Assembly: GCF_030623445.1 (NCBI RefSeq)
Contig: NZ_CP130613.1
Span: 1,612,001-1,676,000, forward strand
From: Pseudogemmatithrix spongiicola
GTDB lineage: Bacteria; Gemmatimonadota; Gemmatimonadetes; Gemmatimonadales; Gemmatimonadaceae
Reading direction: 5' to 3'
Length of the DNA: 64,000 nucleotides
A program made the translations under genes and the position numbers. Below, piece by piece: positions 35,185-51,195 of the stretch (positions are counted from its first letter, which is position 1; each line of letters opens with the position of its first letter). Below the pieces are notes generated by a model. The model had not been told where the DNA came from, ran no database searches, and saw only the letters and a list, made by a program, of their open reading frames with translations.

Positions 35185-36564
35185 TCAGTGCGCCGAGGCC
35201 CCGACGCGCACGCCGCGCGAGGCCAGCCAGCCCTCGACCTCCGCGCGCAACGCAGCCAACCGCGCCTCGCTCGACGCCTCGAAGCGCAGCACGAGGATGG
35301 GCTGCGTGTTCGAGCTGCGGATCAGGCCCCAGCCGTCGCCGAACAGGATGCGCACGCCATCGACGTCGCTGACGTCGTACTTGGCGCGGAAGTGCGCCAG
35401 CGCCTCGGCGACGATCGCTTCCTTGCGGTCGTCGGGGCAGTCCACGCGGAGCTCTGGCGTGGAGACGAAGCGCGGCACGTCCGAGAGCAGTGCCTTCACC
35501 GATCGCTTGGCATCGGCCACGATGCGCAGCACGCGGGCCGCCGCGTAGAGCGCGTCGTCGTGGCCGTAGAAGCCTTCGGTGAAGAACATGTGGCCCGACA
35601 TCTCGCCGGCAATCGGCGCCTTGAGCGCCTTCATCTTGTCCTTGATCAGCGAGTGGCCGGTCTTCCACATCACCGGCTCGCCGCCCGCCTTGCGGATGCC
35701 GTCGGGCAGCGCCTGCGAGCACTTCACGTCGAAGATGATCGGCTGCCCCGCCCCGGTGCGCGCGAGCACGTCGCGGGCGTACAACAGCAGCAGGTAGTCG
35801 CCCCAGATGATCGTGCCGTCGCCGTCCACGATGCCGATGCGGTCGGCGTCGCCGTCGAAGCCGATGCCGATCTCGCTGCCGGTCTCGCGCACGCTGCGGA
35901 TCAGGTCCTGCAGGTTCTCGACGACCGTCGGATCGGGATGGTGGTTCGGGAACGTGCCGTCGCTCTCGGCGAACAGCCAGGTGGGCGTGAGCCCGAGTGC
36001 GGCGAAGAGCTTCGGCGCCACGACCGCGCCCACGCCGTTGCCGCAGTCCACGACGACCTTCATGGTGGACGGCAGCGGGCCGATCTTCTGCGCGATGTCG
36101 GCGACATAGCGGTCGACGATCTCCTCGCTGCGGACACCGCCCGTACCGCTGCGGAACGTGCCGGCCTCGATGATCTCGCGCAGGCGCTGGATGCCGGCGC
36201 CATGCAGCGAGCCCGTGCCGACGCAGCACTTGAAGCCGTTGTACTCGGGCGGGTTATGCGACCCGGTGATCTGGATGCCCGCGACCACCGGGAGGTGATG
36301 CAAGGACCAATAGAGCAGCGGCGTCGGCACGACGCCCACGTCGATGACGTCGAGGCCGCTCTCCGTCAGCCCCCGCACCAAGGCATCCCGCAGGGCGGAG
36401 CCGCTGGGGCGGTTGTCCCGCCCCACGGCGACCGCCCCGCTGATGCCACGCTCGTGCAGCAGCACGGCGTAGGCGCGCCCGATGGCCAGCGCGGCCTCGA
36501 CCGTGAGGTCGTGGCCGACGATGCCGCGGATGTCGTACTGTCGAAAGATCCCCGCCGCGATCAC
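35185..36564 (-). CDS. Phosphomannomutase/phosphoglucomutase
   Basis: The 459-residue alpha-D-phosphohexomutase has the phosphoserine loop GIQITGSHNPPEYNG, the magnesium loop GFDGDADRIGIVD, a sugar-binding loop (GEMSGHMFF) and a C-terminal phosphate-binding domain. It interconverts hexose 1- and 6-phosphates for nucleotide sugar synthesis. The N-terminus FRQYDIRGIVG is typical of AlgC/ManB-type enzymes. It overlaps nuoN by 4 bp, an unusual place for a sugar enzyme. Mannose and glucose specificity cannot be separated by eye; dual activity is common in the AlgC group. Confidence 0.94.
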   Translation of the reverse strand: MIAAGIFRQYDIRGIVGHDLTVEAALAIGRAYAVLLHERGISGAVAVGRDNRPSGSALRDALVRGLTESGLDVIDVGVVPTPLLYWSLHHLPVVAGIQITGSHNPPEYNGFKCCVGTGSLHGAGIQRLREIIEAGTFRSGTGGVRSEEIVDRYVADIAQKIGPLPSTMKVVVDCGNGVGAVVAPKLFAALGLTPTWLFAESDGTFPNHHPDPTVVENLQDLIRSVRETGSEIGIGFDGDADRIGIVDGDGTIIWGDYLLLLYARDVLARTGAGQPIIFDVKCSQALPDGIRKAGGEPVMWKTGHSLIKDKMKALKAPIAGEMSGHMFFTEGFYGHDDALYAAARVLRIVADAKRSVKALLSDVPRFVSTPELRVDCPDDRKEAIVAEALAHFRAKYDVSDVDGVRILFGDGWGLIRSSNTQPILVLRFEASSEARLAALRAEVEGWLASRGVRVGASAH

Positions 36565-38087
36565 CGCGGCTGCCCCTGCGCGTTCACGTCGGACAGCACA
36601 TCCGCCTCCAGCGGCTTGACCCCGGCGTTACCCGTCGCCCACTTGGCGACCGGACCGGGGAAGATACCGAGGGCGAGGATGGCCGCGGCAGCCCCGGCCA
36701 GCACCACGCGCGTGAGGACGCCAGCCGACTGGGGCGCCAGCGCCTGCTCGCCGCGCTCCTGCATGAACATCGCGCGGACAATCTGCAGGTAATAGCCGGC
36801 GGACACCAGCGAGGTGAGGACCAAGATGACCACGACGACCTGCAAGCCGACGTTCGACGCGAGGGCGGCGCCAAGGAGGTACCACTTGGCGAAGAAGCCC
36901 AGGCCGCCGAAGACCGGGAAGCCGAGCAGCGAGAGCAGGTACACGGTCATGCCGACCGCCAACACCGGCCGCGTCTGCCACAAGCCGGCGAAGTCCGCCG
37001 TCGTGACGGCGCGCTCGCTCCCGTCCTGCAGGATGGTCACGACGGCGAAGGCGCCGAACGTGGCCAGCGTGTAGGCAAACAGGTAGAACACGAGGGCCGC
37101 CGACCCCGCGCTGGAGAGCGCGAGGAGCGTGACGAGGAGGTAGCCCGTGTGCGCCACGCTCGAGTACGCGAGCATGCGCTTCACGCTCTGTTGGCGCAGG
37201 GCCATCACGTTACCGACGATCATGCTCGCGATCGCCACCCATGCAAAGACGGTCGGCCACACCTTCACGAGGTACAGCGACTCGTACCAGATGCGCGCGA
37301 AGCCGGCGAATACCGCCGCCTTGACCGCGGCGGCCATGAAGGCCGTGATCGGCGTCGGGGCGCCTTCGTACACGTCGGGCGCCCAGGTGTGGAACGGCAC
37401 CGCCGCGACCTTGAAGAACAGGCCGATGGAGAGCAGGCCCACGCCGACCAGCAGCATCGGGTGGTCACCCAGCGTGTACCGCAGCACGATGCGCGAAATC
37501 TCGGTGAGTTGCGTCTGGCCGGTCGCACCGTAGATGAGCGCCATGCCGTACAGCAGGAAGCCCGTGGCGAAGGCGCCGAGCAGGAAATACTTCAGCGAGG
37601 CCTCCGCGGCCTTGCCCGAGCGCCGATTCATGCCGGCGAGCACGTACACGGCCACCGACATGATCTCGAGGCCGATGAAGAACGTCATCAAGTCGCGCGC
37701 GGCGGCGAGGACCATCATGCCGGCGGTCGCGAAGAGCACGAGCACGTGCATCTCGCCGTGGGCGATGCCGTGGCGCTCGTTGTACTCGATGGCCAGCGCC
37801 ACCGTGCCCATGGCGGCGAGCAGCACGACGATGTCGACCGTCCAGCGCAGCGAATCCGCGGCAATGACGCCCGGGGCCGCCGACGCACCGGCAAGCGCGT
37901 ACTTGATGGTCGCGGCGAGGGTCACGGCCAACACGACCAAGGAGCCGACGCCCACCGTACGCTGATGGGCAAGCGATTCCGGCTTCCACGCGGCCACCAG
38001 CATGAGGATCGTGGCGCCGGTGAGCAGCAGGATGTCGGGCAGCAACGCCGTGGCCAGCTGCATCGGGAACGCAAGATCGTAGGTCAT
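36561..38087 (-). CDS. nuoN: NADH-quinone oxidoreductase subunit N
   Basis: The 508-residue antiporter-like membrane subunit has about 14 hydrophobic helices. Family blocks include FFIGLEIMSVAVYVLAG, KYFLLGAFATGFLLYG and PFHTWAPDVYEGAPTP, which hold the Glu and Lys residues of the proton channel. It is one of three proton-pumping subunits with NuoL and NuoM. It overlaps nuoM and the phosphohexomutase by 4 bp each. Confidence 0.96.
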   Translation of the reverse strand: MTYDLAFPMQLATALLPDILLLTGATILMLVAAWKPESLAHQRTVGVGSLVVLAVTLAATIKYALAGASAAPGVIAADSLRWTVDIVVLLAAMGTVALAIEYNERHGIAHGEMHVLVLFATAGMMVLAAARDLMTFFIGLEIMSVAVYVLAGMNRRSGKAAEASLKYFLLGAFATGFLLYGMALIYGATGQTQLTEISRIVLRYTLGDHPMLLVGVGLLSIGLFFKVAAVPFHTWAPDVYEGAPTPITAFMAAAVKAAVFAGFARIWYESLYLVKVWPTVFAWVAIASMIVGNVMALRQQSVKRMLAYSSVAHTGYLLVTLLALSSAGSAALVFYLFAYTLATFGAFAVVTILQDGSERAVTTADFAGLWQTRPVLAVGMTVYLLSLLGFPVFGGLGFFAKWYLLGAALASNVGLQVVVVILVLTSLVSAGYYLQIVRAMFMQERGEQALAPQSAGVLTRVVLAGAAAAILALGIFPGPVAKWATGNAGVKPLEADVLSDVNAQGQPR

Positions 38088-39658
38088 CGTGCGGCCTCCG
38101 CGGCAGTCACCTGCGCCGGCTCCACCATGCGCACCAGGCGCGCGGCGGCGGCTTCGGTCTTCTCGAGCACGGGCTTGGGATACACGCCGATCCAGAGGAT
38201 GCCGGCCACGAGCGGCACCAGCAGGCCGATCTCGCGCCAGTTGAGGTCCATGCCCTTGAGCGCCTGGTTCTCAGGCTTCACGAGCGGATTGTAGATGATG
38301 CGCTGCACCGCCCAGAGGAGGTACGCGGCGGCGAAGATGACGCTCGTCGCGGCGATCACCGCATGGAACGGCGCCGTCTTGAACGAGCCGATGAGCACGA
38401 GGAACTCGCCGATGAAGCCGTTGGTCCCCGGCACGCCGATGCTCGAGAGCGCCACGATCGTGAGGAACACGGCGAACACCGGCATCACCTTGGCGATGCC
38501 GCCGAAGTCGTCGACGAGGCGCGTGTGGCGCCGCTCGTAGATCATGCCGATGAGCAGGAACAGCGCGCCCGTCGACAGGCCGTGGCTGATGGTGACGACC
38601 AGCGCGCCCTGCATCGACTCCACCGTGGCGGCGAAGATGCCCAGCATCACGAAGCCGAGGTGCGAGACCGACGAGTACGCGACCAGCTTCTTGAAGTCCG
38701 GCTGGACCAAGGCGACCAGCGCGCCGTAGACGATGCCGATCACCGCGAGGGCGAGCATCAGCGAACGCACGCCCGGATGCATGGCCGCCTCGGGGAACAG
38801 CGGCAGCGCGAACCGCACGAAGCCGAACGTGCCCATCTTGAGCATGATGGCCGCCAGGATCACCGAGCCCGCCGTCGGGGCCTCGACGTGCGCATCGGGC
38901 AGCCAGGTGTGGAACGGCCACATCGGCACCTTCACGGCGAAGGCGATCGCGAAGGCGCCGAAGAGCCAGAGCGAACCGCTCCACTCGCTCGTGCGCGACA
39001 GCGCAAGGATGGCGTCGTAGCTGAAGTTCGGCACGCTGCCCTGCGCCGCGGCGATGCCCAGCCAGATCACGGCCACGAGCATGAGCAGCGAGCCGAGCAT
39101 CGTGTAGAGGAAGAACTTGAGGCTCGCGTAGAGCCGGCGCTGGCCGCCCCACACGCCGATGATCAGGTACATCGGCACGAGCATCACTTCCCACATCACG
39201 TAGAACAGCACGAGGTCCAGCGAGACGAACACGCCGATCATGCCGGTGGTGAGCAGCAGCAGCAGGCCGTAGTACCAGCCCGTCTTCTCGCGGATGCTCG
39301 TCCAGCCGCCCAGGACGGCGAGCGGCATGATGATGGTCGTCAGCAGCACCAGCATCAGGGCGATGCCGTCGAGGCCCACGTGGAAGCTGACGCCCCACTG
39401 CGGGATCCACGGCAGCTGCACTTCGGCCTGCCAGGCCAGCGCCGCCGGATCCACCGACCACCAGAGGCCGAGGGAGAGCAGCGCTTCGAGCACGAAGATG
39501 CCGAGGGCCAGCTGGCGGTCGGCGGCCATGCGGGCCTGCGCGTCGCCGGTGCCGGAGAGCGCGCGGCCGAAGAGCACGAGCGCGCCCAGCACGGGAAGCC
39601 CGAGCAGGACCGGCAGGATCCAGCCGTTATAGCCGATGGAGTCGAGGAACGCGGTCAC
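38084..39658 (-). CDS. nuoM: NADH-quinone oxidoreductase subunit M
   Basis: The 524-residue polytopic protein shows MrpD-like antiporter blocks: FYVMWEVMLVPMYLIIGVWG with the channel Glu, and VPMWPFHTWLPDAHVEAPTA. It forms the second proton channel of complex I. It overlaps nuoN by 4 bp and starts 7 bp after nuoL. Length is in the usual range (about 500). Confidence 0.97.
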   Translation of the reverse strand: MTAFLDSIGYNGWILPVLLGLPVLGALVLFGRALSGTGDAQARMAADRQLALGIFVLEALLSLGLWWSVDPAALAWQAEVQLPWIPQWGVSFHVGLDGIALMLVLLTTIIMPLAVLGGWTSIREKTGWYYGLLLLLTTGMIGVFVSLDLVLFYVMWEVMLVPMYLIIGVWGGQRRLYASLKFFLYTMLGSLLMLVAVIWLGIAAAQGSVPNFSYDAILALSRTSEWSGSLWLFGAFAIAFAVKVPMWPFHTWLPDAHVEAPTAGSVILAAIMLKMGTFGFVRFALPLFPEAAMHPGVRSLMLALAVIGIVYGALVALVQPDFKKLVAYSSVSHLGFVMLGIFAATVESMQGALVVTISHGLSTGALFLLIGMIYERRHTRLVDDFGGIAKVMPVFAVFLTIVALSSIGVPGTNGFIGEFLVLIGSFKTAPFHAVIAATSVIFAAAYLLWAVQRIIYNPLVKPENQALKGMDLNWREIGLLVPLVAGILWIGVYPKPVLEKTEAAAARLVRMVEPAQVTAAEAAR

Positions 39659-39665
39659 GGTCGGA

Positions 39666-41855
39666 TCAGAAGAAGGTGAAGGCGCCGAGCACCATCACCG
39701 CGCCAAGCACGAAGATCCAGGCGTAGGTCCCGACGCGCCCGGTGTGCAGCTGCGCGCCCGCCCAGGCCAAGGCCTTGGTGAAGACGGCGCTGCCATTCAC
39801 GAGAAGTCCGTCGATCAGGCCCACGTCGATGCCCTTCCAGAGCACCGTGCGCGACACCGCGACCGTCGGCTGGACGATGGCCTTGTCGTAGCCCTCGTCC
39901 ACGTACCACTTGTTGTACAGCGTCTTGGCCAGCCCCTGCTCCGCCGGCGACTCCTTGGCCGGCTTGAGCGCCTCCGGCTTCAGCTTCGCGAAGGCGAAGG
40001 CGATGCCGGCGACGGCGATCGCGATGGCCGTGCCGATCAGCACATACTCGGTGCTGTGCGAGAGATGCGCGGCCTCGCCGTGCGTGACCATCAGCTCGGC
40101 GGCGCCGGTGACCGGCTCCAACCAGTGATGCAGCACGCCGTCGGCGCCGAGGAACCCGAGGATCGGCGGGATGTTGAACCAGCCGCCCGCCAGAGACAGG
40201 ACGCCGAGCACCACCAGCGGCCCGGTCATGATCCACGGCGCTTCCTTCAGGTGCGGCCGCTCGGCGTCGCCCGTGCGGTTCGGTCCATGGAAGGTGTACA
40301 GCATCATGCGCGTCATGTAGATCGCCGTCATCAGCGCGGCCGCGAGGCCCAGCGCGTAGACCACGTACAGCACCACGCTGCCCGGCACGCCCAGCAGCGC
40401 GCCCTCGGCCAGCGTCGAGCCATGCGTGCGCGCGAACACGCTCGCGAGGATCTCGTCCTTGGAGAAGAAGCCCGAGAAGAACGGGATGCCGGCGATCGCC
40501 AGCGTCGCGATCCACATCAGGTAGAACGTCACGGGCATGTGCGCCTTGAGGCCGCCCATGTTGCGCATGTCCTGCGCGTCCTCGTGCTTGTGCGTCGCGT
40601 GGTACGCCTGGTGCATGGCGTAGATCACGGAGCCCGAGCCAAGGAACAGCAGCGCCTTGAAGAAGGCGTGCGTCATCAGGTGGAACACGCCTGCCGTGTA
40701 CGCGCCCACGCCAACGCCGACGAACATGTAGCCGAGCTGCGAGACGGTGGAGTACGCGAGCACCTTCTTGATGTCCCACTGCTTGAGGCCGATCGTCGCG
40801 GCGAACACGGCCGTGAGCGCACCGACCAGGGCCACCGTGAGCTGCGCCGTGGGCGCCAGCGCGAAGAGCAGGCCCGAGCGGGCGATCAGGTACACACCCG
40901 CCGTCACCATCGTGGCGGCGTGGATGAGCGCCGAGACCGGCGTCGGGCCCGCCATGGCGTCCGGCAGCCACACGTACAGCGGGATCTGCGCCGACTTGCC
41001 CGTGGCGCCGAGGAACAGGAACAGCGCGATCGCCGTCGGCACCAGCGCCCCGACCTCGACGTCGCCCAGCGCGCCCTCGAGGCCCGTGAAGCTCAGGGTG
41101 CCGAAGTTCGCGAACATCAGGAACATCGCGACCAGCATGCCGAAGTCGCCGATGCGGTTCACGATGAAGGCCTTCTTGCCGGCGTCGGCGTTGGCCTTCT
41201 CCGAGAACCAGAAGCCGATGAGCAGGTACGAGCAGAGTCCCACGCCTTCCCAGCCCACGAACATCAGCGGGTAGCTCGAGCCGAGCACCAGCAGGAGCAT
41301 GAAGAAGACGAACAGGTTGAGGTACGCGAAGTAGCGCGGATACCCCGGGTCGTCCTGCATGTAGCCGACGGAGAACAGGTGGATCAGCGAGCCGATGCCC
41401 GTGATGATCAGCACCATGACCATCGAAAGCTGGTCGAGCTGGAAGGCCACGTCGATGCTGAGATCGCCGGTGGGCATCCACTGGAACAGCGTGAGGATGT
41501 AGGGATCCTCGATGTGCGCGGCGCGCATGGCGCCGAAGATCGCGACGGCGAGGCCGAAGCTCAGCAGTAGGACGCCGGGGCCGATCAGCGAGACCAGCTT
41601 GGCCGCAGGATGGCGCGCCGCGTGATGGTCGTCGTGCCCGTGGTCATCGTGGCCATGCGCCGCATGGCCGTGGTCGCCGTGCGCATGTTCAGAGGCGGCC
41701 GTCGGGTCCGCGGGACCCGCGTGCGCGGCGTGCTTCAACGAGAGGAACCCGTTGAGCGCGAAGCCGAGCAGCGGCAGCACCGGCAGCAGCCACGCGAAGC
41801 GCGCGACCGTGTCGGCCAGCGGATGGCCCATCTCGGGGGGAGGAGTCTGGATCAT
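39666..41855 (-). CDS. nuoL: NADH-quinone oxidoreductase subunit L, with His-rich loop
   Basis: The 729-residue subunit forms the outermost proton channel and, near its C-terminus, the long lateral helix region (about 590-660) that braces the membrane arm. Blocks include GWEGVGLCSYLLIGFW and PLYVWLPDAMAGPTPVSALIH. Between the first two membrane helices (about 41-82) it has an insertion dominated by His and Asp (HAHGDHGHAAHGHDDHGHDD), absent from E. coli NuoL. The start shares one base with the nuoK stop. E. coli NuoL has 613 residues; the extra length here is in this loop and the C-terminal part. Confidence 0.97.
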   Translation of the reverse strand: MIQTPPPEMGHPLADTVARFAWLLPVLPLLGFALNGFLSLKHAAHAGPADPTAASEHAHGDHGHAAHGHDDHGHDDHHAARHPAAKLVSLIGPGVLLLSFGLAVAIFGAMRAAHIEDPYILTLFQWMPTGDLSIDVAFQLDQLSMVMVLIITGIGSLIHLFSVGYMQDDPGYPRYFAYLNLFVFFMLLLVLGSSYPLMFVGWEGVGLCSYLLIGFWFSEKANADAGKKAFIVNRIGDFGMLVAMFLMFANFGTLSFTGLEGALGDVEVGALVPTAIALFLFLGATGKSAQIPLYVWLPDAMAGPTPVSALIHAATMVTAGVYLIARSGLLFALAPTAQLTVALVGALTAVFAATIGLKQWDIKKVLAYSTVSQLGYMFVGVGVGAYTAGVFHLMTHAFFKALLFLGSGSVIYAMHQAYHATHKHEDAQDMRNMGGLKAHMPVTFYLMWIATLAIAGIPFFSGFFSKDEILASVFARTHGSTLAEGALLGVPGSVVLYVVYALGLAAALMTAIYMTRMMLYTFHGPNRTGDAERPHLKEAPWIMTGPLVVLGVLSLAGGWFNIPPILGFLGADGVLHHWLEPVTGAAELMVTHGEAAHLSHSTEYVLIGTAIAIAVAGIAFAFAKLKPEALKPAKESPAEQGLAKTLYNKWYVDEGYDKAIVQPTVAVSRTVLWKGIDVGLIDGLLVNGSAVFTKALAWAGAQLHTGRVGTYAWIFVLGAVMVLGAFTFF

Positions 41856-42148
41856 CAGCCTTTCAGCAGGTTGATGTCATCGAGGTTCACCGACTGGCGG
41901 TGACGGAAGATCGAGATCACGATCGCGAGCCCGACGGCCGCTTCGGCGGCGGCCACCGTGATGACGAAGAGCACGAAGACCTCGCCGGACGCGCCGTACA
42001 CCTTGCTCAGCGCCACCAGCGAGAGATTCACGGCGTTGAGCATCAGCTCGATGCACATGAAGAGGATGATCGCGTTGCGGCGCGTGAGCACGCCGATCAC
42101 GCCGATGGCGAAGAGCGCCGCGGAGAGCGCGAGGGATTCAGCCAGCAT
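41855..42148 (-). CDS. nuoK: NADH-quinone oxidoreductase subunit K
   Basis: The 97-residue protein has three hydrophobic helices. It includes [21 protein letters not shown] with the conserved membrane-buried Glu, and [18 protein letters not shown] with the second Glu. It is a core membrane-arm subunit beside the quinone channel. It lies 3 bp after nuoJ and touches nuoL. Confidence 0.97.
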
Positions 42149-42151
42149 GGG

Positions 42152-42697
42152 TCAGCTCCTCTTGCGGCCGAGGGTGACCGCGCCGACGATCGCCACGAGC
42201 AGCAGGATCGAGGCCAGCTCGAAGGCCAGCAGTTGGTCCCTGAGCAGCACCTCGGCGATCGGGGCGATGATGCCGCCCGGCTCGTTGCGCATCGCCTCGC
42301 CGCTCGCCACCGGCAGCGTGAGCTGCGCGCTCCACTTGGCCCGCGCCAGCACCATCACCTCGGCCAGCAGCGCCGCGCCGACGAAGCCCGCCGTCACGCG
42401 CGGCAGGTTGCCGCGGATGTCGCTCACGTCCTCGGGCTTGCCGAGGTTGAGCAGCATGACGACGAACAGGAACACGACCATGATGGCGCCGGCGTACACC
42501 AAGATCTGGATGGCGCCGATGAACTGCGCATCCAGCATCACATAGAGCGCCGCCAGGCAGAACATCACGTTCACCAACCACAGCGCGGCCGCCACCGGGC
42601 TCTTGCGCGTCACGAACAGGATCGCCGAGACCAGCGCGATCACCGCGAAGAGATAGAAGTGGAACGAGAAGAAGAGCGGGAAGAACTCGTTGTTCAT
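42152..42697 (-). CDS. nuoJ: NADH-quinone oxidoreductase subunit J
   Basis: The 181-residue, five-helix membrane protein contains QFIGAIQILVYAGAIMVVFLFVVML, the pi-bulge helix region conserved in NuoJ (given here in part: AIQILVYAGAIMVVFLF). It forms part of the central proton path. It lies 3 bp after nuoI and 3 bp before nuoK. Length matches the family (about 180). Confidence 0.95.
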   Translation of the reverse strand: MNNEFFPLFFSFHFYLFAVIALVSAILFVTRKSPVAAALWLVNVMFCLAALYVMLDAQFIGAIQILVYAGAIMVVFLFVVMLLNLGKPEDVSDIRGNLPRVTAGFVGAALLAEVMVLARAKWSAQLTLPVASGEAMRNEPGGIIAPIAEVLLRDQLLAFELASILLLVAIVGAVTLGRKRS

Positions 42698-42700
42698 CCG

Positions 42701-43198
42701 TCACTCCCCCCGCGGGTCGGCGGGGTCCCACAGCTCGCTCACCGGGTGCGTCTGGGCCGTGAGGCGCTCGAGGTCGTACACGAACTTGTCGCGCGAGTAC
42801 TCGGCGTTCTCGTAGTGGCGGCCCATGTGGATCGCCTCTTCCGGGCAGACTTCCTGGCAGTAGCCGCAGAAGATGCAGCGGAACTCATCGATCTCGAACA
42901 CCAGCGGGTAGCGGTTCCCCGCCTCGTCCTCGCCGGGCACGAGCTTGATGCAGTTGGCCGGGCACACCGTCGGGCAGAGGCCGCAGGCCACGCACTTCGC
43001 CTTGCCGTCCTCGGTGGTGAGCATGCGGTGCGTGCCGCGCCAGCGCGGGGAAATGTCCCAGCGCTCGTCGGGATACTGCACCGTGACCTTATGCGGGTTC
43101 ACGAGATGCTTGAGTGTGAGCCCAAGGCCCGACAGCGTGGCGCGCACGTAGCTCACCTCGCCGACCGGCCGCTCCATGACCTTCACGTTGATCGCCAT
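42701..43198 (-). CDS. nuoI: NADH-quinone oxidoreductase subunit I
   Basis: The 165-residue protein has two ferredoxin-type [4Fe-4S] motifs, CVACGLCPTVCPANCI and CIFCGYCQEVCPEEAI, which carry clusters N6a and N6b in the peripheral arm. It passes electrons from NuoG to NuoB. It starts one base after the nuoH stop. Length matches the family. Confidence 0.97.
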   Translation of the reverse strand: MAINVKVMERPVGEVSYVRATLSGLGLTLKHLVNPHKVTVQYPDERWDISPRWRGTHRMLTTEDGKAKCVACGLCPTVCPANCIKLVPGEDEAGNRYPLVFEIDEFRCIFCGYCQEVCPEEAIHMGRHYENAEYSRDKFVYDLERLTAQTHPVSELWDPADPRGE

Positions 43199-43199
43199 A

Positions 43200-44453
43200 T
43201 CAGCGGATCTCCTCGGGGGCCAGCGTCGCGCGCATCGGGGCGCGGCCGCGCAGGCGTTCGATTTCCTCGGGGCTCAGGCGCGTCGACGCCGGGCTCACCA
43301 AGCGGCCGCGGTCGAGCACCAGGAAGAGCAGCAGCACGCAGACCAGGTTGAGCCCGCCCATGGCGTACCCGAAGGTCGCGCCGCGGCCGAGTCCGGCCAT
43401 GTCCATCACCACGATCGCGCCCGAGATGAGCACCAGGTACACCAGCGCGATCGGCAGCATCACCTGCCAGCCCAGCGACATCAACTGGTCGTAGCGGAAG
43501 CGCGGGAGCGTCCAGCGCACCCAGATGTAGAAGAAGACGAAGAAGATCGTCTTGAACGCGAACATGCCGAAGGTCGCGGCCGCCTTGGCCACGCTGTACG
43601 GACCGGTCGAATCCCAGTCCGTAAACGGGATGTCCCAGCCGCCGAGGAACAGCGTCACGAACATCGCGCTCGTCGTGACCATGTTCGCGTACTCGGAGAT
43701 GGGGAACATCGAGAACTTCATCGCGCTGTATTCGCTGTGGTAGCCGGCGATGAGCTCCGATTCCGCTTCCGGCATGTCGAAGGGCACGCGGTTCGTCTCG
43801 GCGAACGCCGACACGAGGAACAGGAAGCCCGCGACCGAGAGGATGATCGCGTTCCAGGTCGAGCCCTGCTGCTGCGCAATGATCTCCGTCAGCGACACGT
43901 TGCCGCTCACGAGCAGCACGCAGAGCAGCGCCATGCCCATCGTGATCTCATAGCTGACCATCTGCGCCGAGGCGCGGAGGCCGCCGAGCAGGGCGTACTT
44001 GTTGTTCGAGCTCCAGCCGGCGATCACGATGCCGTAGACGCCGAGCGAGGCGATGCCGATCGTATACAGGAAGCCGATCGGCAGGTCGGCGACGACCATG
44101 TCCACGCGGCCCCAGGCCGTCGGCATGGGTGCGGCAAAGGGAATCACCGCCCAGGCGATGAGCGCCGGGATGAACGCGATGGCCGGCGCGAGGATGAACA
44201 GCGGCTTGTTCACGCCGCCGGGCATCGACTCTTCCTTCATGATGTTCTTCACGCCGTCAGCCAGCACCTGGAACAAGCCCCAGGGGCCCACGCGGTTGGG
44301 GCCGTGCCGGTCCTGGATCCAGCCCGAGATCTTCCGCTCGGCCAGCGTCGTGTAGGCCACGCCGACCATGTAGAGCGTGAAGATGGCCAGCATCTTGATG
44401 ACCGTGAAGATCACGAAGGGCCAGAAGCCCAGCTCGAGTTGCGTCTGATCCAT
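43200..44453 (-). CDS. nuoH: NADH-quinone oxidoreductase subunit H
   Basis: The 417-residue membrane subunit has eight or more helices. It contains ERKISGWIQDRHGPNRVGPW and FAETNRVPFDMPEAESELIAG, the signature loops that line the quinone chamber. It joins the peripheral and membrane arms. The C-terminal tail of about 55 residues (SPASTRLSPEEIERLRGR) is longer and more charged than usual. It shares one base with nuoG. Confidence 0.97.
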   Translation of the reverse strand: MDQTQLELGFWPFVIFTVIKMLAIFTLYMVGVAYTTLAERKISGWIQDRHGPNRVGPWGLFQVLADGVKNIMKEESMPGGVNKPLFILAPAIAFIPALIAWAVIPFAAPMPTAWGRVDMVVADLPIGFLYTIGIASLGVYGIVIAGWSSNNKYALLGGLRASAQMVSYEITMGMALLCVLLVSGNVSLTEIIAQQQGSTWNAIILSVAGFLFLVSAFAETNRVPFDMPEAESELIAGYHSEYSAMKFSMFPISEYANMVTTSAMFVTLFLGGWDIPFTDWDSTGPYSVAKAAATFGMFAFKTIFFVFFYIWVRWTLPRFRYDQLMSLGWQVMLPIALVYLVLISGAIVVMDMAGLGRGATFGYAMGGLNLVCVLLLFLVLDRGRLVSPASTRLSPEEIERLRGRAPMRATLAPEEIR

Positions 44454-46012
44454 TACGCGGCCCCCGCCTTCGCGTCGCTCACGGAGGCACCGTAGAGACC
44501 GAGCGTCTCATAGCTCAGCCCCGCGAACGCGCGCTCGCTCTGCGCGAGCGCCGCGAACACCGCGCTGGGCAGGAAATAGTCGCTCTTCACGCCGATGGCG
44601 TTGTTGAGGTCGGCCAGGGCGAACCAGCTCGGCCGGGCCAATCCCGGCGCCGCCTTGGCCTGCAGGAAGCGCTGCACGCGGCCGCGCAGGTTCGTGAACG
44701 TGCCTTCCTCCTCGGCCACGTTCGCGATGGGCAGCACCACGTGCGGCGTCACGACGCCGTGCGGCAGCGTCGTGCCGACGACGATGATCGCGCTGGCGCG
44801 CGACACCTTGCCGAGGTCGAGACCCGTGAGTTCCTCGTCCGCGAGCACGAGCACGTCACCGTCCTTGAGGCCGGCGAGCGGGTCGGCATCGTTGCGCACG
44901 AAGCCGAGCAGCTCGGCGCCCACCACGTTCGGGGCGCGATCGGCGCGCAGCGAGAGGTCCGCCACGCCCGGCAGCGGCGCCTCGGGGCCCGTTTCGCAGC
45001 GGAAGCTCCCCTGCCCGCCCGTCTTGGCAATCAGCTGCTTGAGCAGGAACAGCGCCTCGTTCGAGAGCTTCGGGCTCGCGAGCACGAACGCCCGCTTACC
45101 GCTGAGGAGCTTGGACGCCTCGTTGTAGGCGATCTCCCAATCGACCGGCGAGAGCACGCCGGCCAGCTGGATCTTCGGCGCCTCGTTGCGGTCGGGGCGA
45201 TTCATCCAGCGATAGTCGAGCCGGCCCTGGTCGCAGAGGTAGAACTGGTTGACCTGGTCGTTGGAGCGCGGCTTCTGGCGCACGACGACGTTGTCGCGCG
45301 TCTCGAGGATCGTGTTGCAGCCCTGCGTGCAGCCGGTGCACACCGAGGCCGTGCGATCGAGCTCCCAGGCGCGCGCCTTGTTCAGGAAGTCCTTGGAGAC
45401 GAGGGCGCCGACCGGGCAGAGATCGATGACGTTCGCCGCCCACGGCTGCGTGAGGTCGGCGTCGCCCGCCTTGCCGATGGTCGCGCGATCGTCGCGCTCG
45501 GAGACGTTGAGCACCGGCGCCTGATGCACGTCGTCCATGAAGCGGACGCAGCGCGTGCAGAGGATGCAGCGGTTGGTGACGTAGAGGACGTCGCCGCCGA
45601 AGTCCTCGACCGGGTTGAAGCGCTTGGGCTCGCGGTAGCGCGAGTCGGCGCGCCCTTCCTGGAAGGTGTAGTCCTGCAGCTCGCACTCGCCGGCCTGGTC
45701 GCAGATCGGGCAGTCGAGCGGATGGTTGATGAGCAGCAGCTCGAGCACGCCCTTGCGGGCCTCGAGCGCCTTCTCGGAGTAGACGTGCACCACCTGCCCT
45801 TCGGCCACCGCCGTCGCACAGGACGGCGCCAGCTTCGGCATCTTCTCGACTTCCACGAGGCACATGCGGCAGACGCCGGCCACGGGGAGCCCCGGGTGGT
45901 AGCAGTAGTGCGGGACGAGCACGCCCGCCTGCTTGGCCGCCTCGAGAATGCTGGTGCCCGCGGGCACCGACACCTGCCGGCCTTCGATCGTGAGATTGAC
46001 CTGCTGGCTCAT
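44453..46012 (-). CDS. nuoG: NADH-quinone oxidoreductase subunit G, short form
   Basis: The 519-residue protein has an N-terminal [2Fe-2S] domain (CYHPGLPVAGVCRMC). Next come the His-ligated N5 site (HPLDCPICDQAGEC) and N4 (CILCTRCVRF with CPVGAL), then an N7-type set CX2CX3CX27C (CTGCTQGC to FYLC). The molybdopterin-like domain that follows is much reduced: E. coli NuoG has about 900 residues. It passes electrons from NuoE/F to NuoI. ATG 46012 overlaps nuoF as ATGA; the frame upstream is the nuoF shadow. Confidence 0.96.
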   Translation of the reverse strand: MSQQVNLTIEGRQVSVPAGTSILEAAKQAGVLVPHYCYHPGLPVAGVCRMCLVEVEKMPKLAPSCATAVAEGQVVHVYSEKALEARKGVLELLLINHPLDCPICDQAGECELQDYTFQEGRADSRYREPKRFNPVEDFGGDVLYVTNRCILCTRCVRFMDDVHQAPVLNVSERDDRATIGKAGDADLTQPWAANVIDLCPVGALVSKDFLNKARAWELDRTASVCTGCTQGCNTILETRDNVVVRQKPRSNDQVNQFYLCDQGRLDYRWMNRPDRNEAPKIQLAGVLSPVDWEIAYNEASKLLSGKRAFVLASPKLSNEALFLLKQLIAKTGGQGSFRCETGPEAPLPGVADLSLRADRAPNVVGAELLGFVRNDADPLAGLKDGDVLVLADEELTGLDLGKVSRASAIIVVGTTLPHGVVTPHVVLPIANVAEEEGTFTNLRGRVQRFLQAKAAPGLARPSWFALADLNNAIGVKSDYFLPSAVFAALAQSERAFAGLSYETLGLYGASVSDAKAGAA

Positions 46013-47325
46013 ACGCCCGCCCCCATCGCCACCGTGGACGAGCGCTTGCCCTTGATCAGCGCCTCGAACTCGCCGCGGAACTTGTTGATGCCGGAGGTCA
46101 CCGGCGCCGCGCAGGAGTCCGACAGCACGCAGATCGTCTTGCCCGTCATGTTCTCGGCCAAGTCGAAAATGGTATCGAGGTCCTCGAACGTGCCCTGACC
46201 GGCGACGATACGCTCGAGGATCTTGGTCATCCACGCGGTGCCTTCGCGGCACTGCGTGCACTGGGCGCAGCTCTCATGCGCATAGAAGCGCGAGAGGCGT
46301 GCGAGCTGGCGCGGCATGGACTGCGCGTCGTCGAAGATGATCACGCCGCCGGAGCCGAGCATGGTGCCGACTTCGAGGAAGCCCTCGTAGTCCATCTTCA
46401 CGGATTCGGCTTCGTCGATCGTGATCACCGGCACGGACGAACCGCCCGGGATCAGCGCCTTGAACTTGCGGCCCGGCAGCGGTCCGCCGCAGAGGTCGTA
46501 CAGGAACTCCTTGAAGGAGAAGCCCATCACGACTTCGTAGTTGCCCGGCTTGGCCACGTTGCCGCAGACCGAGAAGAGCTTGCTGCCCGTGCTCTTCGGC
46601 GACGACAGGCACATCGCCTTGTACCACTCGGCGCCGTTGTTGAGGATGTGCGGTACGGCGGTCAGCGTCTCGACGTTGTTGATCGTCGTCGGCTGGCCGA
46701 ACAGCCCGCTCACCGCCGGGAACGGCGGCTTGATGCGCGGATTGCCACGCTTGCCCTCGAGCGAGTTCATCAGGGCGGTTTCTTCGCCGCAGATGTACGC
46801 GCCGGCGCCGCGATGCACCCACACATCGATCTTCTTGCCGCTGCCCATCGCGTTGTTGCCGATGATGCCGGCGGCGCGCGCTTCCTTCAGCGCCTCCTCG
46901 AGGCGCGCGATGGGCTCCGTGAACTCACCGCGCACGTAGATGTAGGCCGTCTCCGCGCCGATGGCATACGCGCCGATGGCGCAGCCCTCGATGAGCGCAT
47001 GCGGCGTCCAGCGCATGATCTCGCGGTCCTTGAACGTGCCCGGCTCGGATTCGTCGGCGTTGCAGGCGAGGTAGTGCGGCTTGCCGTCGTTCAGCTTCAT
47101 GAACGACCACTTGAGGCCGGTCGGGAAGCCGGCGCCACCACGACCGCGCAGGCCGGACTCCTTCACGACGTTCTGGATCGCCACCGGATCCATCGTGAGG
47201 GCCTGCTGCAGCGCCTTGTAGCCGCCGAGTGACTTCCAGGTCTCGAGCTTGCGCGCCTCAGGATTGCCGAAGTGCTTGGAGAGCACCGGCGTCTCGCGCG
47301 GATGCGACTTATGCGGGTATCCCAT
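46009..47325 (-). CDS. nuoF: NADH-quinone oxidoreductase subunit F
   Basis: The 438-residue protein carries the NADH and FMN site (GLRGRGGAGFPTGLKW, and YLACNADESEPGTFKDRE) and cluster N3 (ESCAQCTQCREGTAW, plus a distal Cys in LSDSCAAP). It oxidises NADH and feeds electrons into complex I. It lies 37 bp after nuoE, the largest gap in the nuo run; that gap holds a short repeat-like stretch (GAGATGTAAGACGTGAGA). Confidence 0.98.
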   Translation of the reverse strand: MGYPHKSHPRETPVLSKHFGNPEARKLETWKSLGGYKALQQALTMDPVAIQNVVKESGLRGRGGAGFPTGLKWSFMKLNDGKPHYLACNADESEPGTFKDREIMRWTPHALIEGCAIGAYAIGAETAYIYVRGEFTEPIARLEEALKEARAAGIIGNNAMGSGKKIDVWVHRGAGAYICGEETALMNSLEGKRGNPRIKPPFPAVSGLFGQPTTINNVETLTAVPHILNNGAEWYKAMCLSSPKSTGSKLFSVCGNVAKPGNYEVVMGFSFKEFLYDLCGGPLPGRKFKALIPGGSSVPVITIDEAESVKMDYEGFLEVGTMLGSGGVIIFDDAQSMPRQLARLSRFYAHESCAQCTQCREGTAWMTKILERIVAGQGTFEDLDTIFDLAENMTGKTICVLSDSCAAPVTSGINKFRGEFEALIKGKRSSTVAMGAGV

Positions 47326-47362
47326 TACTGCAGACCTGAGATGTAAGACGTGAGATTGAAGG

Positions 47363-47908
47363 TCACTGCAGGCCTCGCAGAATCTCGGGCACCTTCTCGG
47401 GCGTCACGTTCTCGACGTAGTCCTCGTTGATCTGCACCGGCGTGGCGAAACCGCAGGCGCCGAGGCACTCGACCTCGATCACCGTGTACTTGCCGTCAGG
47501 GCTCGTGAGGCCGAGCTCCTTGCAGCCCGTGTGCTCGAGGAAGGCCTCCACGACCTTGTCGGCACCGGCGCAGAGGCAGGGCGACGTCGTGCAGACCTGG
47601 ATGAAGTGCTGCCCCACCGGATGCTGGTGGTACATGGTGTAGAAGGTCACGACGCCCTTCACGTAGGCGGCCGTGACGCCGAGCTGCTCGCCGATCTCGC
47701 GCATCGCGTCTTCGGAGATCCACCCGCGGTCCTGCTGGATCATCCAGAGACCCGGCAGCAAGCAGGCGCGCTTGTCGGGATAGCGGGTCTTCAGGTCGTC
47801 GAGCTCCTGCTTGCGCGCGGAGCCCGGCGTGAAGACCGGCTGGTACGGCTCGTGGTCGTGGCTCTGACCGTGGGGGGCGGCGCTAGGCGCCGAAGGTCCG
47901 TGGCTCAC
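47363..47908 (-). CDS. nuoE: NADH-quinone oxidoreductase subunit E
   Basis: The 181-residue thioredoxin-like [2Fe-2S] protein (cluster N1a) has cysteines in CTTSPCLCAG and ECLGACGFATP. It pairs with NuoF in the NADH module. The first 25 residues are a His/Ser/Pro-rich extension (SHGPSAPSAAPHGQSHDHEP) before the conserved core. It overlaps nuoD by 4 bp. Confidence 0.96.
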   Translation of the reverse strand: MSHGPSAPSAAPHGQSHDHEPYQPVFTPGSARKQELDDLKTRYPDKRACLLPGLWMIQQDRGWISEDAMREIGEQLGVTAAYVKGVVTFYTMYHQHPVGQHFIQVCTTSPCLCAGADKVVEAFLEHTGCKELGLTSPDGKYTVIEVECLGACGFATPVQINEDYVENVTPEKVPEILRGLQ

Positions 47909-49209
47909 CGGTCGATCTCTCCCATCACGATGTCGATGGAGGCGTTGATCGCGATGACGTCGGAGAGCAGGTGGCCCTCCACCATCTTCGGGATCGCCGA
48001 CAGGTTCACGAAGCTGGGCGGGCGGATGCGCCAGCGCGCCGGCTTGGCCGTGCCGTCGGACACGAAGTAGTAGCCCTTCTCACCCTTGGGGCTCTCGATC
48101 GGCACGTACACCTCGCCGATCGGCGGCCGCGGGCCTTCCATCACCAGCTTGAAGTGATGGATCATCGATTCCATCTCGCTCGTCGCCTTGGACTTCGGCG
48201 GCAGGATGATGCGCGGGTCATCCACGTTCACCGGCCCGTCGGGCAAGCGCTTCAGCGCCTGGTCGAGGATGCGCACCGACTGGCGCAGCTCTTCCTGCCG
48301 CACGAGGAAGCGGTCATACACGTCGCCGTTCGTGCCGACCGGGACGTCGAAGTCGTAGGTCTCGTAATCGAGATACGGGAAATCCTTGCGCACATCGTAC
48401 GCCACGCCGCTCGCGCGCAGCATCGGACCCGTGAGGCCGTAGTTGAGCGCCTCCTGCGGCGTCATCACGCCCAAGCCCACCGTACGACCGACCCAGATCG
48501 CGTTCTTGTTGAGCATGCGCTCAACCTGATCCAGCGTCTTCGGGAAGGTGTCGATGAAGTGCCGCAGCTGGTCGGTCCAGCCTTCCGGCACGTCGGCGAT
48601 CATGCCGCCCACGCGCGCCCCGCTCGTCGTCAGGCGGGCACCCGTCCAGCGCTCGAGCAGGTTGTACACGTTCTCGCGCTCCTGGAAGCTCCACAGGAAG
48701 GGCGTGAACGCGCCGATGTCGATGCAGGTCGTGCCCAGCCACACCAGGTGCGAGATGATGCGCGAGAGCTCCATGCCAATCACGCGGAGCACCTTGCAGC
48801 GCTCGGTGATCTCGATCCCGAACAGCCGCTCGGCGCCCAACGCATAGGCAATGTTGTTGCCCAGCGAGTTGAGATAGTCCTCGCGGTCCGTCCACGGGAT
48901 GATCTGGTTGTACTGGCGGTACTCGCCGATCTTCTCGAAGCCGCAGTGCAGGTAGCCCACGTGCGGGATGCAGCGCACGACGGTCTCACCGTCGAGCTCG
49001 AGCACGAGGCGCAACACGCCGTGCGTGGCCGGGTGCTGCGGGCCGATGTTGATCAGCATGTGCTCGCCTTCGAACTCCGGCTCGGCGGGCGCATGCGGGC
49101 TCATCAAGCCCTCGGCGCCGAGCGGGATGCGCTGCGGCTTGCCGTCGGGCCCGAGGCCGGTGGTCGAGAGCGCGACCTCGATGGTGCGCTTGTCAGTCAT
49201 CGTTGGCAT
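47905..49209 (-). CDS. nuoD: NADH-quinone oxidoreductase subunit D
   Basis: The 434-residue protein is the 49-kDa-type subunit that lines the quinone site with NuoB. Blocks include NIGPQHPATHGVLRLVLELDGE, whose His and following region face the quinone (here in part: GPQHPATHGVLRLVLE), and GYLHCGFEKIGE. ATG 49209 has GGGAGAG nine bases upstream; ATG 49200 is a possible alternative. It lies 6 bp after nuoC and is not fused to it, unlike in E. coli. Confidence 0.97.
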   Translation of the reverse strand: MPTMTDKRTIEVALSTTGLGPDGKPQRIPLGAEGLMSPHAPAEPEFEGEHMLINIGPQHPATHGVLRLVLELDGETVVRCIPHVGYLHCGFEKIGEYRQYNQIIPWTDREDYLNSLGNNIAYALGAERLFGIEITERCKVLRVIGMELSRIISHLVWLGTTCIDIGAFTPFLWSFQERENVYNLLERWTGARLTTSGARVGGMIADVPEGWTDQLRHFIDTFPKTLDQVERMLNKNAIWVGRTVGLGVMTPQEALNYGLTGPMLRASGVAYDVRKDFPYLDYETYDFDVPVGTNGDVYDRFLVRQEELRQSVRILDQALKRLPDGPVNVDDPRIILPPKSKATSEMESMIHHFKLVMEGPRPPIGEVYVPIESPKGEKGYYFVSDGTAKPARWRIRPPSFVNLSAIPKMVEGHLLSDVIAINASIDIVMGEIDR

Positions 49210-49215
49210 TCGCGC

Positions 49216-49926
49216 TCACTCTCCCGTCTGCGCGCCGCCACCGAGGCGACGACGCATGTCGAGGGGCAGGTCTTCGAAGGCATCGGCGATCGAGAGCTCT
49301 TCCTTGGAGTAGCGTGCCTCGGGATTCGCGGCGAGCGCCTGGCGGAGCTGCTCCGAGCGCGAGAAGCGCCCGCGCATCGGGAAGTCCTTCCGGAGGGGAT
49401 AGCCTTCCTTGTACTGCTCCCACATGAGGATGCGGCGCAGGTCGGGATGGCCCGTGAACTCGATGCCGAACATGTCGTAGCACTCCCGCTCCATCCAATC
49501 CGCGGCCTTCCACACGCCCCACACGCTGGGCACGGCGAGCGGCGTCTTGCCGTCCTTCGGCAACTCCGCCTTGAGACGCAGGAAGCGGCGGAACTTGAGC
49601 GAGCGGATGTGCCAGACGACTTCGATGGCCCGCATCGCGTCGCGGTACTCGACGGCGGTCACGTCGACGAGCATCTCGTATGACTGGTCCGGGTCGCCCT
49701 GCAGCCAAGCGGCGATCTCGGCGACCTTCGCGCGGTCCACGTATACAGTGCTGTCGCCCCAGACGACCTCGGCGCGGCCGATGGCCGAGCCGAAGCGCGC
49801 GCGCAGCGCCTCGACGCTGGGGTTCATGGCGCCACCGCGGTGGGCGATGCCCGTCGGCGTGGTCGGCTGCTCGCCCGGGTTCCCGGGGCGCACGACCGTG
49901 AAGGAGGGAGTGCTGTGCTTGCTCAC
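49216..49926 (-). CDS. nuoC: NADH-quinone oxidoreductase subunit C
   Basis: The 236-residue protein is the 30-kDa-type subunit. Its core contains [19 protein letters not shown] and [17 protein letters not shown], the family signature. The first 40 residues ([20 protein letters not shown]) are a low-complexity extension not found in short homologues. It connects the peripheral arm to the quinone module. It overlaps nuoB by 4 bp. Confidence 0.96.
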
Positions 49927-50552
49927 GGCGCCGACCGCGTCTGATGGACCGAGTTGCCGAACGGCTCGGAGAGCTCGTCGATGCGCGACGGCGGGATGTA
50001 GAGCTGCGAGGTCGGGTCGGCCATGAACTCATCGCGCAGCGACTCGTTCGACATCCGCTCCTGCATCACCTTCTTCTGCAGCATCATGATGCCGTAGATG
50101 AGGCCTTCCGGACGCGGCGGGCAGCCCGGGACGTAGACGTCCACCGGGATGATCGTGTCGATGCCCTGCGCCACCGCGTAGGAGTCGAACATGCCGCCCG
50201 ACGAGGCGCAGGCGCCCATCGAGATCACCCACTTGGGCTGGTGCATCTGCTGGTAGATGCGGCGCAGCACCGGCGCGAGCTTGAACGGCACGCGGCCGGC
50301 GCAGATGAGCACGTCGCTCTGGCGCGGCGAGAAGCTCATGCGTTCCATGCCGAAGCGCGCGAGGTCGAACTTCGAGGCCGCGGTGGCCATGAACTCGATC
50401 GCGCAGCACGCGGTGCCGAAGGGCATCGGCCACAGCGAGTTCGCGCGGCCCCAGTTCACGAGGAAGTCGAGGCGGGTGGTGATCCACCCTTCCTGCGACT
50501 GCGGGTTGTACGAGACCGCCGTCGCCGGATCCGGCTGCGTGATCAATCCCAT
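49923..50552 (-). CDS. nuoB: NADH-quinone oxidoreductase subunit B
   Basis: The 209-residue protein binds the terminal [4Fe-4S] cluster N2, using the tandem cysteines in [11 protein letters not shown] and those in [11 protein letters not shown] and VPGCPPRPE. It hands electrons to quinone. ATG 50552 lies inside the end of nuoA (10-bp overlap); the longer upstream frame is a nuoA shadow. The last 45 residues form a polar extension. Confidence 0.97.
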
Positions 50553-50947
50553 TGCATCGCTCCCTTCTTCCACTCGTAGATGAAGCCCGCCACGAGCACG
50601 GTCATGAAGACCAGCATCGTGCCGAAGCCGTAGAAGGTCACCTGGTCGGGCGCGCACACCCCGTTCACGAGGGGCACCTTGCAGGACAGTTGCTGGAAGT
50701 ACGCCGCCCACGGCACGAGCAGCACCGTCTCCACGTCGAAGACGATGAACAGCATCGCGACCATGTAGAACTTCACGGAGAAGCGTTCGCGGGCATCGCC
50801 GAGGACCGGCATGCCGGACTCGTACGGCTCCTGCTTGACCGGCGTCGGGCGGTGACGGGTCAAATAGTGCGACAGGCCCAGGATCAAGACCGCGTTGACG
50901 GCCACGAATCCGAGCAGCAGGAGAACGGGGAGGTACGTCCGTTCCAT
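50543..50947 (-). CDS. nuoA: NADH-quinone oxidoreductase subunit A
   Basis: The 134-residue protein has three membrane helices and the family loop [20 protein letters not shown] followed by [14 protein letters not shown], which hold the conserved acidic residues. Between helices 2 and 3 it has a short Cys-containing insert ([17 protein letters not shown]). It is the first gene of the nuo run. A palindromic Rex-like operator lies 30-47 bases before its ATG. No strong Shine-Dalgarno is visible. Confidence 0.95.
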
Positions 50948-50976
50948 TCGGGGGGAGATGGGGGTCGGAGCGCGAT

Positions 50977-50994
50977 TCGTGAATTATTTCACGA
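50977..50994. promoter_or_regulatory. Predicted Rex-family operator upstream of nuoA
   Basis: TCGTGAA-TTAT-TTCACGA is a perfect 18-base palindrome, 30 bases from the nuoA start. The Rex consensus is TTGTGAA-N4-TTCACAA; each half differs by one symmetric base. Rex represses respiratory genes until NADH rises, and complex I genes are known Rex targets in Streptomyces. A CRP/FNR-like reading (GTGA-N6-TCAC) also fits. Confidence 0.6.
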
Positions 50995-51195
50995 GCTTCA
51001 TACTTTCGGGTGGGAAGCTATCCCGACGACACGCGCATTGCAACCGCTTCGTCGCCGCAACTCGTAGTGCGCATTGGACTTGGGCGTCCAATCCCGAATC
51101 AGTTCATCTGCATTGCCACGGCCGATGCAACGAACCGATTCCGGGCAATCGGGTACGACTGGCGCACTCGTTCGACTCCCCTTTCTGAGGCCTGC

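Follow-up and report, generated by a model that had tools for sequence, protein, structure and literature searches.

Which protein, if any, acts on the inverted repeat that lies directly upstream of the complex I (nuo) operon of Pseudogemmatithrix spongiicola? The window, meaning the whole 64,000-nucleotide stretch of DNA that we analyzed (contig NZ_CP130613.1, positions 1,612,001 to 1,676,000), carries the sequence TCGTGAATTATTTCACGA at positions 50977-50994, and rereading it there confirmed a Rex-type inverted repeat. The initial annotation had called it a Rex-like operator, a proposal that is supported at the sequence level by a Rex homolog in the genome, conservation of the site, and joint loss of rex and site. 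We put the probability at roughly 0.92 that the repeat is the operator of the NAD(H)-sensing repressor Rex, which would govern complex I according to the NADH level. The relevant features of the window are as follows.

50543..50947, minus strand: nuoA, NADH-quinone oxidoreductase subunit A (PF00507, 113 bits)
49923..50552, minus strand: nuoB (PF01058, 95.5 bits)
36561..49209, minus strand: further nuo genes (nuoD, E, F, G, H, L, M and N by Pfam; I, J and K by position and size only)
50977..50994, minus strand: predicted Rex operator, reading TCGTGAAATAATTCACGA on the nuoA strand
51015..51020, minus strand: predicted -10 element TAGCTT, counterpart of TAACTT/TAATTT in relatives
51038..51043, minus strand: predicted -35 element TTGCAA (TTGACA in many relatives), with a 17-base spacer

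The 7-base arms of the repeat, written TCGTGAA-TTAT-TTCACGA, are perfectly complementary, but the 4-base spacer TTAT is asymmetric, so this is a 7-4-7 inverted repeat and not the perfect 18-base palindrome first described. As had been stated, each half of the site departs from the Rex consensus, TTGTGAANNNNTTCACAA, at one base, symmetrically (outer positions 2 and 17). It also lies before nuoA as claimed, although the gap to the nuoA ATG (50947, minus strand) counts 29 bases (50948-50976) rather than 30. With its perfect GTGA-N6-TCAC core, it qualifies as a close variant of the Rex operator TTGTGAA-N4-TTCACAA in a promoter region. The 3.26 Mb genome contains the exact 18-base sequence once. 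When the 249-base intergenic stretch was shuffled (first order), 1.6% of the shuffles held some 7-4-7 inverted repeat, whatever its bases, and 0.045% held a match to the Rex consensus with at most two mismatches.

The initial annotation suggested looking for a rex gene, and the genome, a single 3.26 Mb contig, has one. Judged by its domains and alignments, the only PF06971 protein encoded (211 aa) is a clear Rex: it scores 254 bits against the NCBIfam NF003992 cut-off of 226, combines a winged-helix domain (PF06971, 67 bits) with an NAD(H)-binding Rossmann domain (PF02629, 59 bits), and aligns to Rex chains in the PDB at an E value of 4e-43. The closest solved structures by sequence are those of Thermotoga maritima Rex (5zz5, 7wb3), in which Arg48, Lys49, Arg60 and Gly61 read the DNA (PMC8836258). 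Counterparts of all four are present here (VRKD and KRGLGY in the alignment to 5zz5), so the DNA-reading residues are common to both proteins. A perfect canonical site, TTGTGAAAGATTTCACAA, stands 4 bases ahead of the rex start. When 30 other Gemmatimonadota rex loci were added to this one, the site before rex was perfect at 26 of the 31 and had one mismatch at the other five. This set defines the binding sequence to be expected of Rex in Gemmatimonadota.

Alignment of the nuoA upstream region across relatives, another suggestion of the initial annotation, showed that the repeat is kept. By nuoB, almost all of the nearest relatives are labeled Gemmatimonadaceae or other Gemmatimonadota. We found nuoA in 79 relatives and judged 78, leaving out L086, whose sequence ends early. 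Upstream of nuoA, 65/78 had a site with a perfect GTGA-N6-TCAC core and no more than three mismatches to the consensus, and three more had a site with one core mismatch. In the nuo alignment (67 rows, one of which, from L086, is false and derives from coding sequence), GTGAA and TTCAC are near-invariant; the left outer bases vary and the right CGA is nearly fixed. The G at position 17, found in 88% of rows, is a fixed deviation from the consensus, unlike the situation at the sites before rex and the alternative complex III (act) operon. An A or T stands beside each GTGA/TCAC in 94-97% of nuo rows, as in the autoregulatory site of rex. The scan upstream of nuoA found no site in eight rex-bearing relatives (L046, L081, L105, L113, L114, L116, L118 and L119).

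The position of the operator relative to the promoter is best seen in the relatives. A -35 element resembling TTGACA and a -10 element of the form TA...T, spaced 16-19 bases apart, precede the operator in 31 of the 65, compared with 0.5 expected in shuffles, and a gap of 14 bases between -10 and operator is the most frequent. With the promoter pair on that side and at that distance, the operator probably starts at about +8, just inside the predicted transcript start, a position at which a repressor, once bound, would obstruct initiation or the earliest stages of transcription. In P. spongiicola itself, the end of the predicted -10 lies 20 bases from the operator (TTGCAA-N17-TAGCTT, 51043-51015). 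Its promoter score of 6.0 falls below the threshold of 7 set for the relatives and makes it a weak match.

Since Rex and CRP sites are alike in core and spacing, we turned to phyletic evidence. Our sample comprised 186 genomes from Gemmatimonadota, each with a completeness of 95% or more, with rex present in 172 and absent in 14; most are metagenome assemblies, so that single absences may be gaps. Within the class, all 13 sampled rex-bearing genomes had a core-perfect nuo site. Among 12 rex-lacking genomes of the class, the nuo site was missing in 10, decayed in one (G125) and intact in one (G103). The association between rex and the nuo site gave a Fisher p of 2.7e-6 when the decayed site was counted as none, and 4e-4 when collapsed by genus. 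Outside the class, three genomes of family f9 had no nuo site, two of them being rex-bearing. The rex-less set includes the whole genus g45 together with G170 (genus g46) and G187 (genus g55), whose congeners have both rex and site; absence from an entire genus and from single members of two others points to several independent losses. A full-length Rex query confirmed the absence of rex from the rex-less genomes, save for a weak Rossmann-only match in G125. Across the sample, the exact canonical motif occurred in 157/172 rex-bearing versus 2/14 rex-less genomes, and a reversed-pattern control motif had no match in any of the 186. The operator is kept at orthologous promoters and depends on the presence of rex, and this co-loss ties the site to Rex.

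Two of the rex-less genomes merit separate mention. G103, with its intact nuo site, also has two canonical sites; its missing rex is likely an assembly gap, because its listed congeners have the gene. G125 (loci L276 and L165) has degraded sites at both nuo and atp and has apparently been caught midway through losing the Rex regulon.

The same distribution bears on whether a CRP/FNR-family protein binds the repeat instead, an outcome that the initial annotation had named as fatal to its proposal and that the phyletic pattern contradicts. The core is spaced like that of a CRP site, and a single CRP-like protein is encoded in the genome (locus L122, 1851-1180, minus strand); it has a cNMP domain at 100 bits and a CRP-like NCBIfam match below the cut-off. 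Its recognition helix, RETVSR, resembles that of E. coli CRP and could read GTGA. However, this protein has no homolog at an E value of 1e-8 in G166, G169, G175, G176 or G178, all of which have the nuo site, whereas G073 encodes a 59% identical ortholog and has neither rex nor the nuo site. The nuo site instead follows rex in its distribution and keeps the A/T flanks of the rex site. Because the site occurs without a CRP ortholog and is missing where the ortholog occurs, we rejected its assignment to CRP/FNR, which we consider very improbable. Weaker still, and in our view barely credible, is the idea that the repeat acts as an RNA hairpin or is a chance feature with no protein bound: it is self-complementary and lies in the predicted nuo leader, but the bases themselves are conserved beyond pairing, match a known protein site and vanish with rex, and compensatory changes are not the pattern among relatives.

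What the sequences show directly is the site, its conservation, its evolutionary tie to rex and the layout of promoter and operator in relatives. That Rex binds and represses there, and which way it responds to NADH, we infer by homology from Rex proteins already studied. At a low ratio of NADH to NAD+, a Rex dimer would occupy the nuo site and block RNA polymerase. As NADH builds up, Rex would release and allow complex I, which re-oxidizes NADH, to be made. Other predicted targets are the rex gene itself and the operons for alternative complex III and ATP synthase, so that Rex would determine how much is made of most of the respiratory chain.

Further copies of the motif, which the initial annotation suggested looking for, were found. 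Sites in the P. spongiicola genome precede rex, the alternative complex III operon, atpI-atpB, atpA, nuoA and a gene for a plastocyanin-like blue copper protein; the motif search looked at the stretches around motif matches. The act operon is identified as encoding alternative complex III from its domain matches and layout, with a multiheme cytochrome c gene followed by those for a fused molybdopterin-like/iron-sulfur protein and an NrfD-like membrane protein. Of 30 family members, 23 retain the act site and 29 the atpI-atpB site; in downstream control stretches of the act and atp loci, the best matches had 4-6 mismatches. The sites also differ by operon: those at rex and act are canonical, the nuo site ends in CGA, and the atpI-atpB site starts with TTGCGAA (TTGCGAA...TTCACAA in 24/30 rows). 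On these predicted sites, Rex seems to control the greater part of the respiratory chain throughout Gemmatimonadota. We suggest more tentatively, and with considerable doubt, that Rex might be a phylum-wide master controller of the aerobic chain, including alternative complex III, with each operon's fixed operator variant giving ordered NADH thresholds.

For atpA, the blue copper gene and clpX, the sites were considered in this genome only. The Rex-like site before the blue copper gene is TTGTGATATTTTTCACAA (L028:6643-6660, genome position 46642), and the encoded protein may carry electrons downstream of alternative complex III. Another Rex-like site, TTGTGATTTTTTTCACGA, lies in the clpP-clpX gap (L034:6477-6494, genome position 2299476). 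Many other genome matches with 2-3 mismatches fall within or next to high-GC coding sequence and contain GC-rich spacers; we took these as chance.

Control of nuo and atp by Rex is proven in Streptomyces, so both the kind of mechanism and these targets are already known. In S. avermitilis, Rex represses nuoA1-N1, atpIBEFHAGDC, cydA1B1CD and rex-hemAC1DB, and its footprints include TTGTGATACGGTTCACGA at atpI, which ends in TTCACGA (PMC5355995). The two systems share the Rex protein, the consensus, a site at rex itself, and the nuo and atp targets, and the S. avermitilis atpI site has the same CGA end as our nuo site (PMC5355995). They differ in that the phylum studied here is Gram-negative, rex is not followed by hem genes, and alternative complex III and a blue copper protein are among the candidate targets. 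Position relative to the promoter differs as well: our operator lies 3' of the predicted -10, but at nuo and atp of S. avermitilis it is the -35 that the sites cover (PMC5355995). The survey of Rex regulons across bacterial phyla by Ravcheev et al. (2012, J. Bacteriol. 194:1145), to the extent that it is cited in PMC5317091, gives the same generalized consensus and logic. The initial annotation called such control little described in a Gram-negative phylum. For Gemmatimonadota this is a fair statement, and we found no paper on it in the openly licensed literature, but Rex is known outside Gram-positives, for example in T. maritima and Thermus thermophilus (PMC8836258). That literature likewise yielded no report of a link between Rex and alternative complex III or of fixed operon-specific variants. 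The new parts are therefore the phylum, the predicted alternative complex III target, and the operon-specific fixed variants of the putative operator.

Together, these sites yield a regulatory map that can be put to the test, in a phylum that is common yet hard to work with; one NADH sensor would preside over complex I, ATP synthase and alternative complex III. With a fixed variant for each operon, graded control by a single sensor can be measured directly, and the repeated independent loss of rex and site amounts to a natural experiment. Genus g45 (G156-G161), which lacks rex throughout, is also without any canonical Rex site. Genus g46 (G162-G176), of the same class, has an expanded Rex regulon, with 5-17 exact consensus sites per genome versus 0-4 elsewhere; the single-contig G176 has 17 and the rex-less G170 has none.
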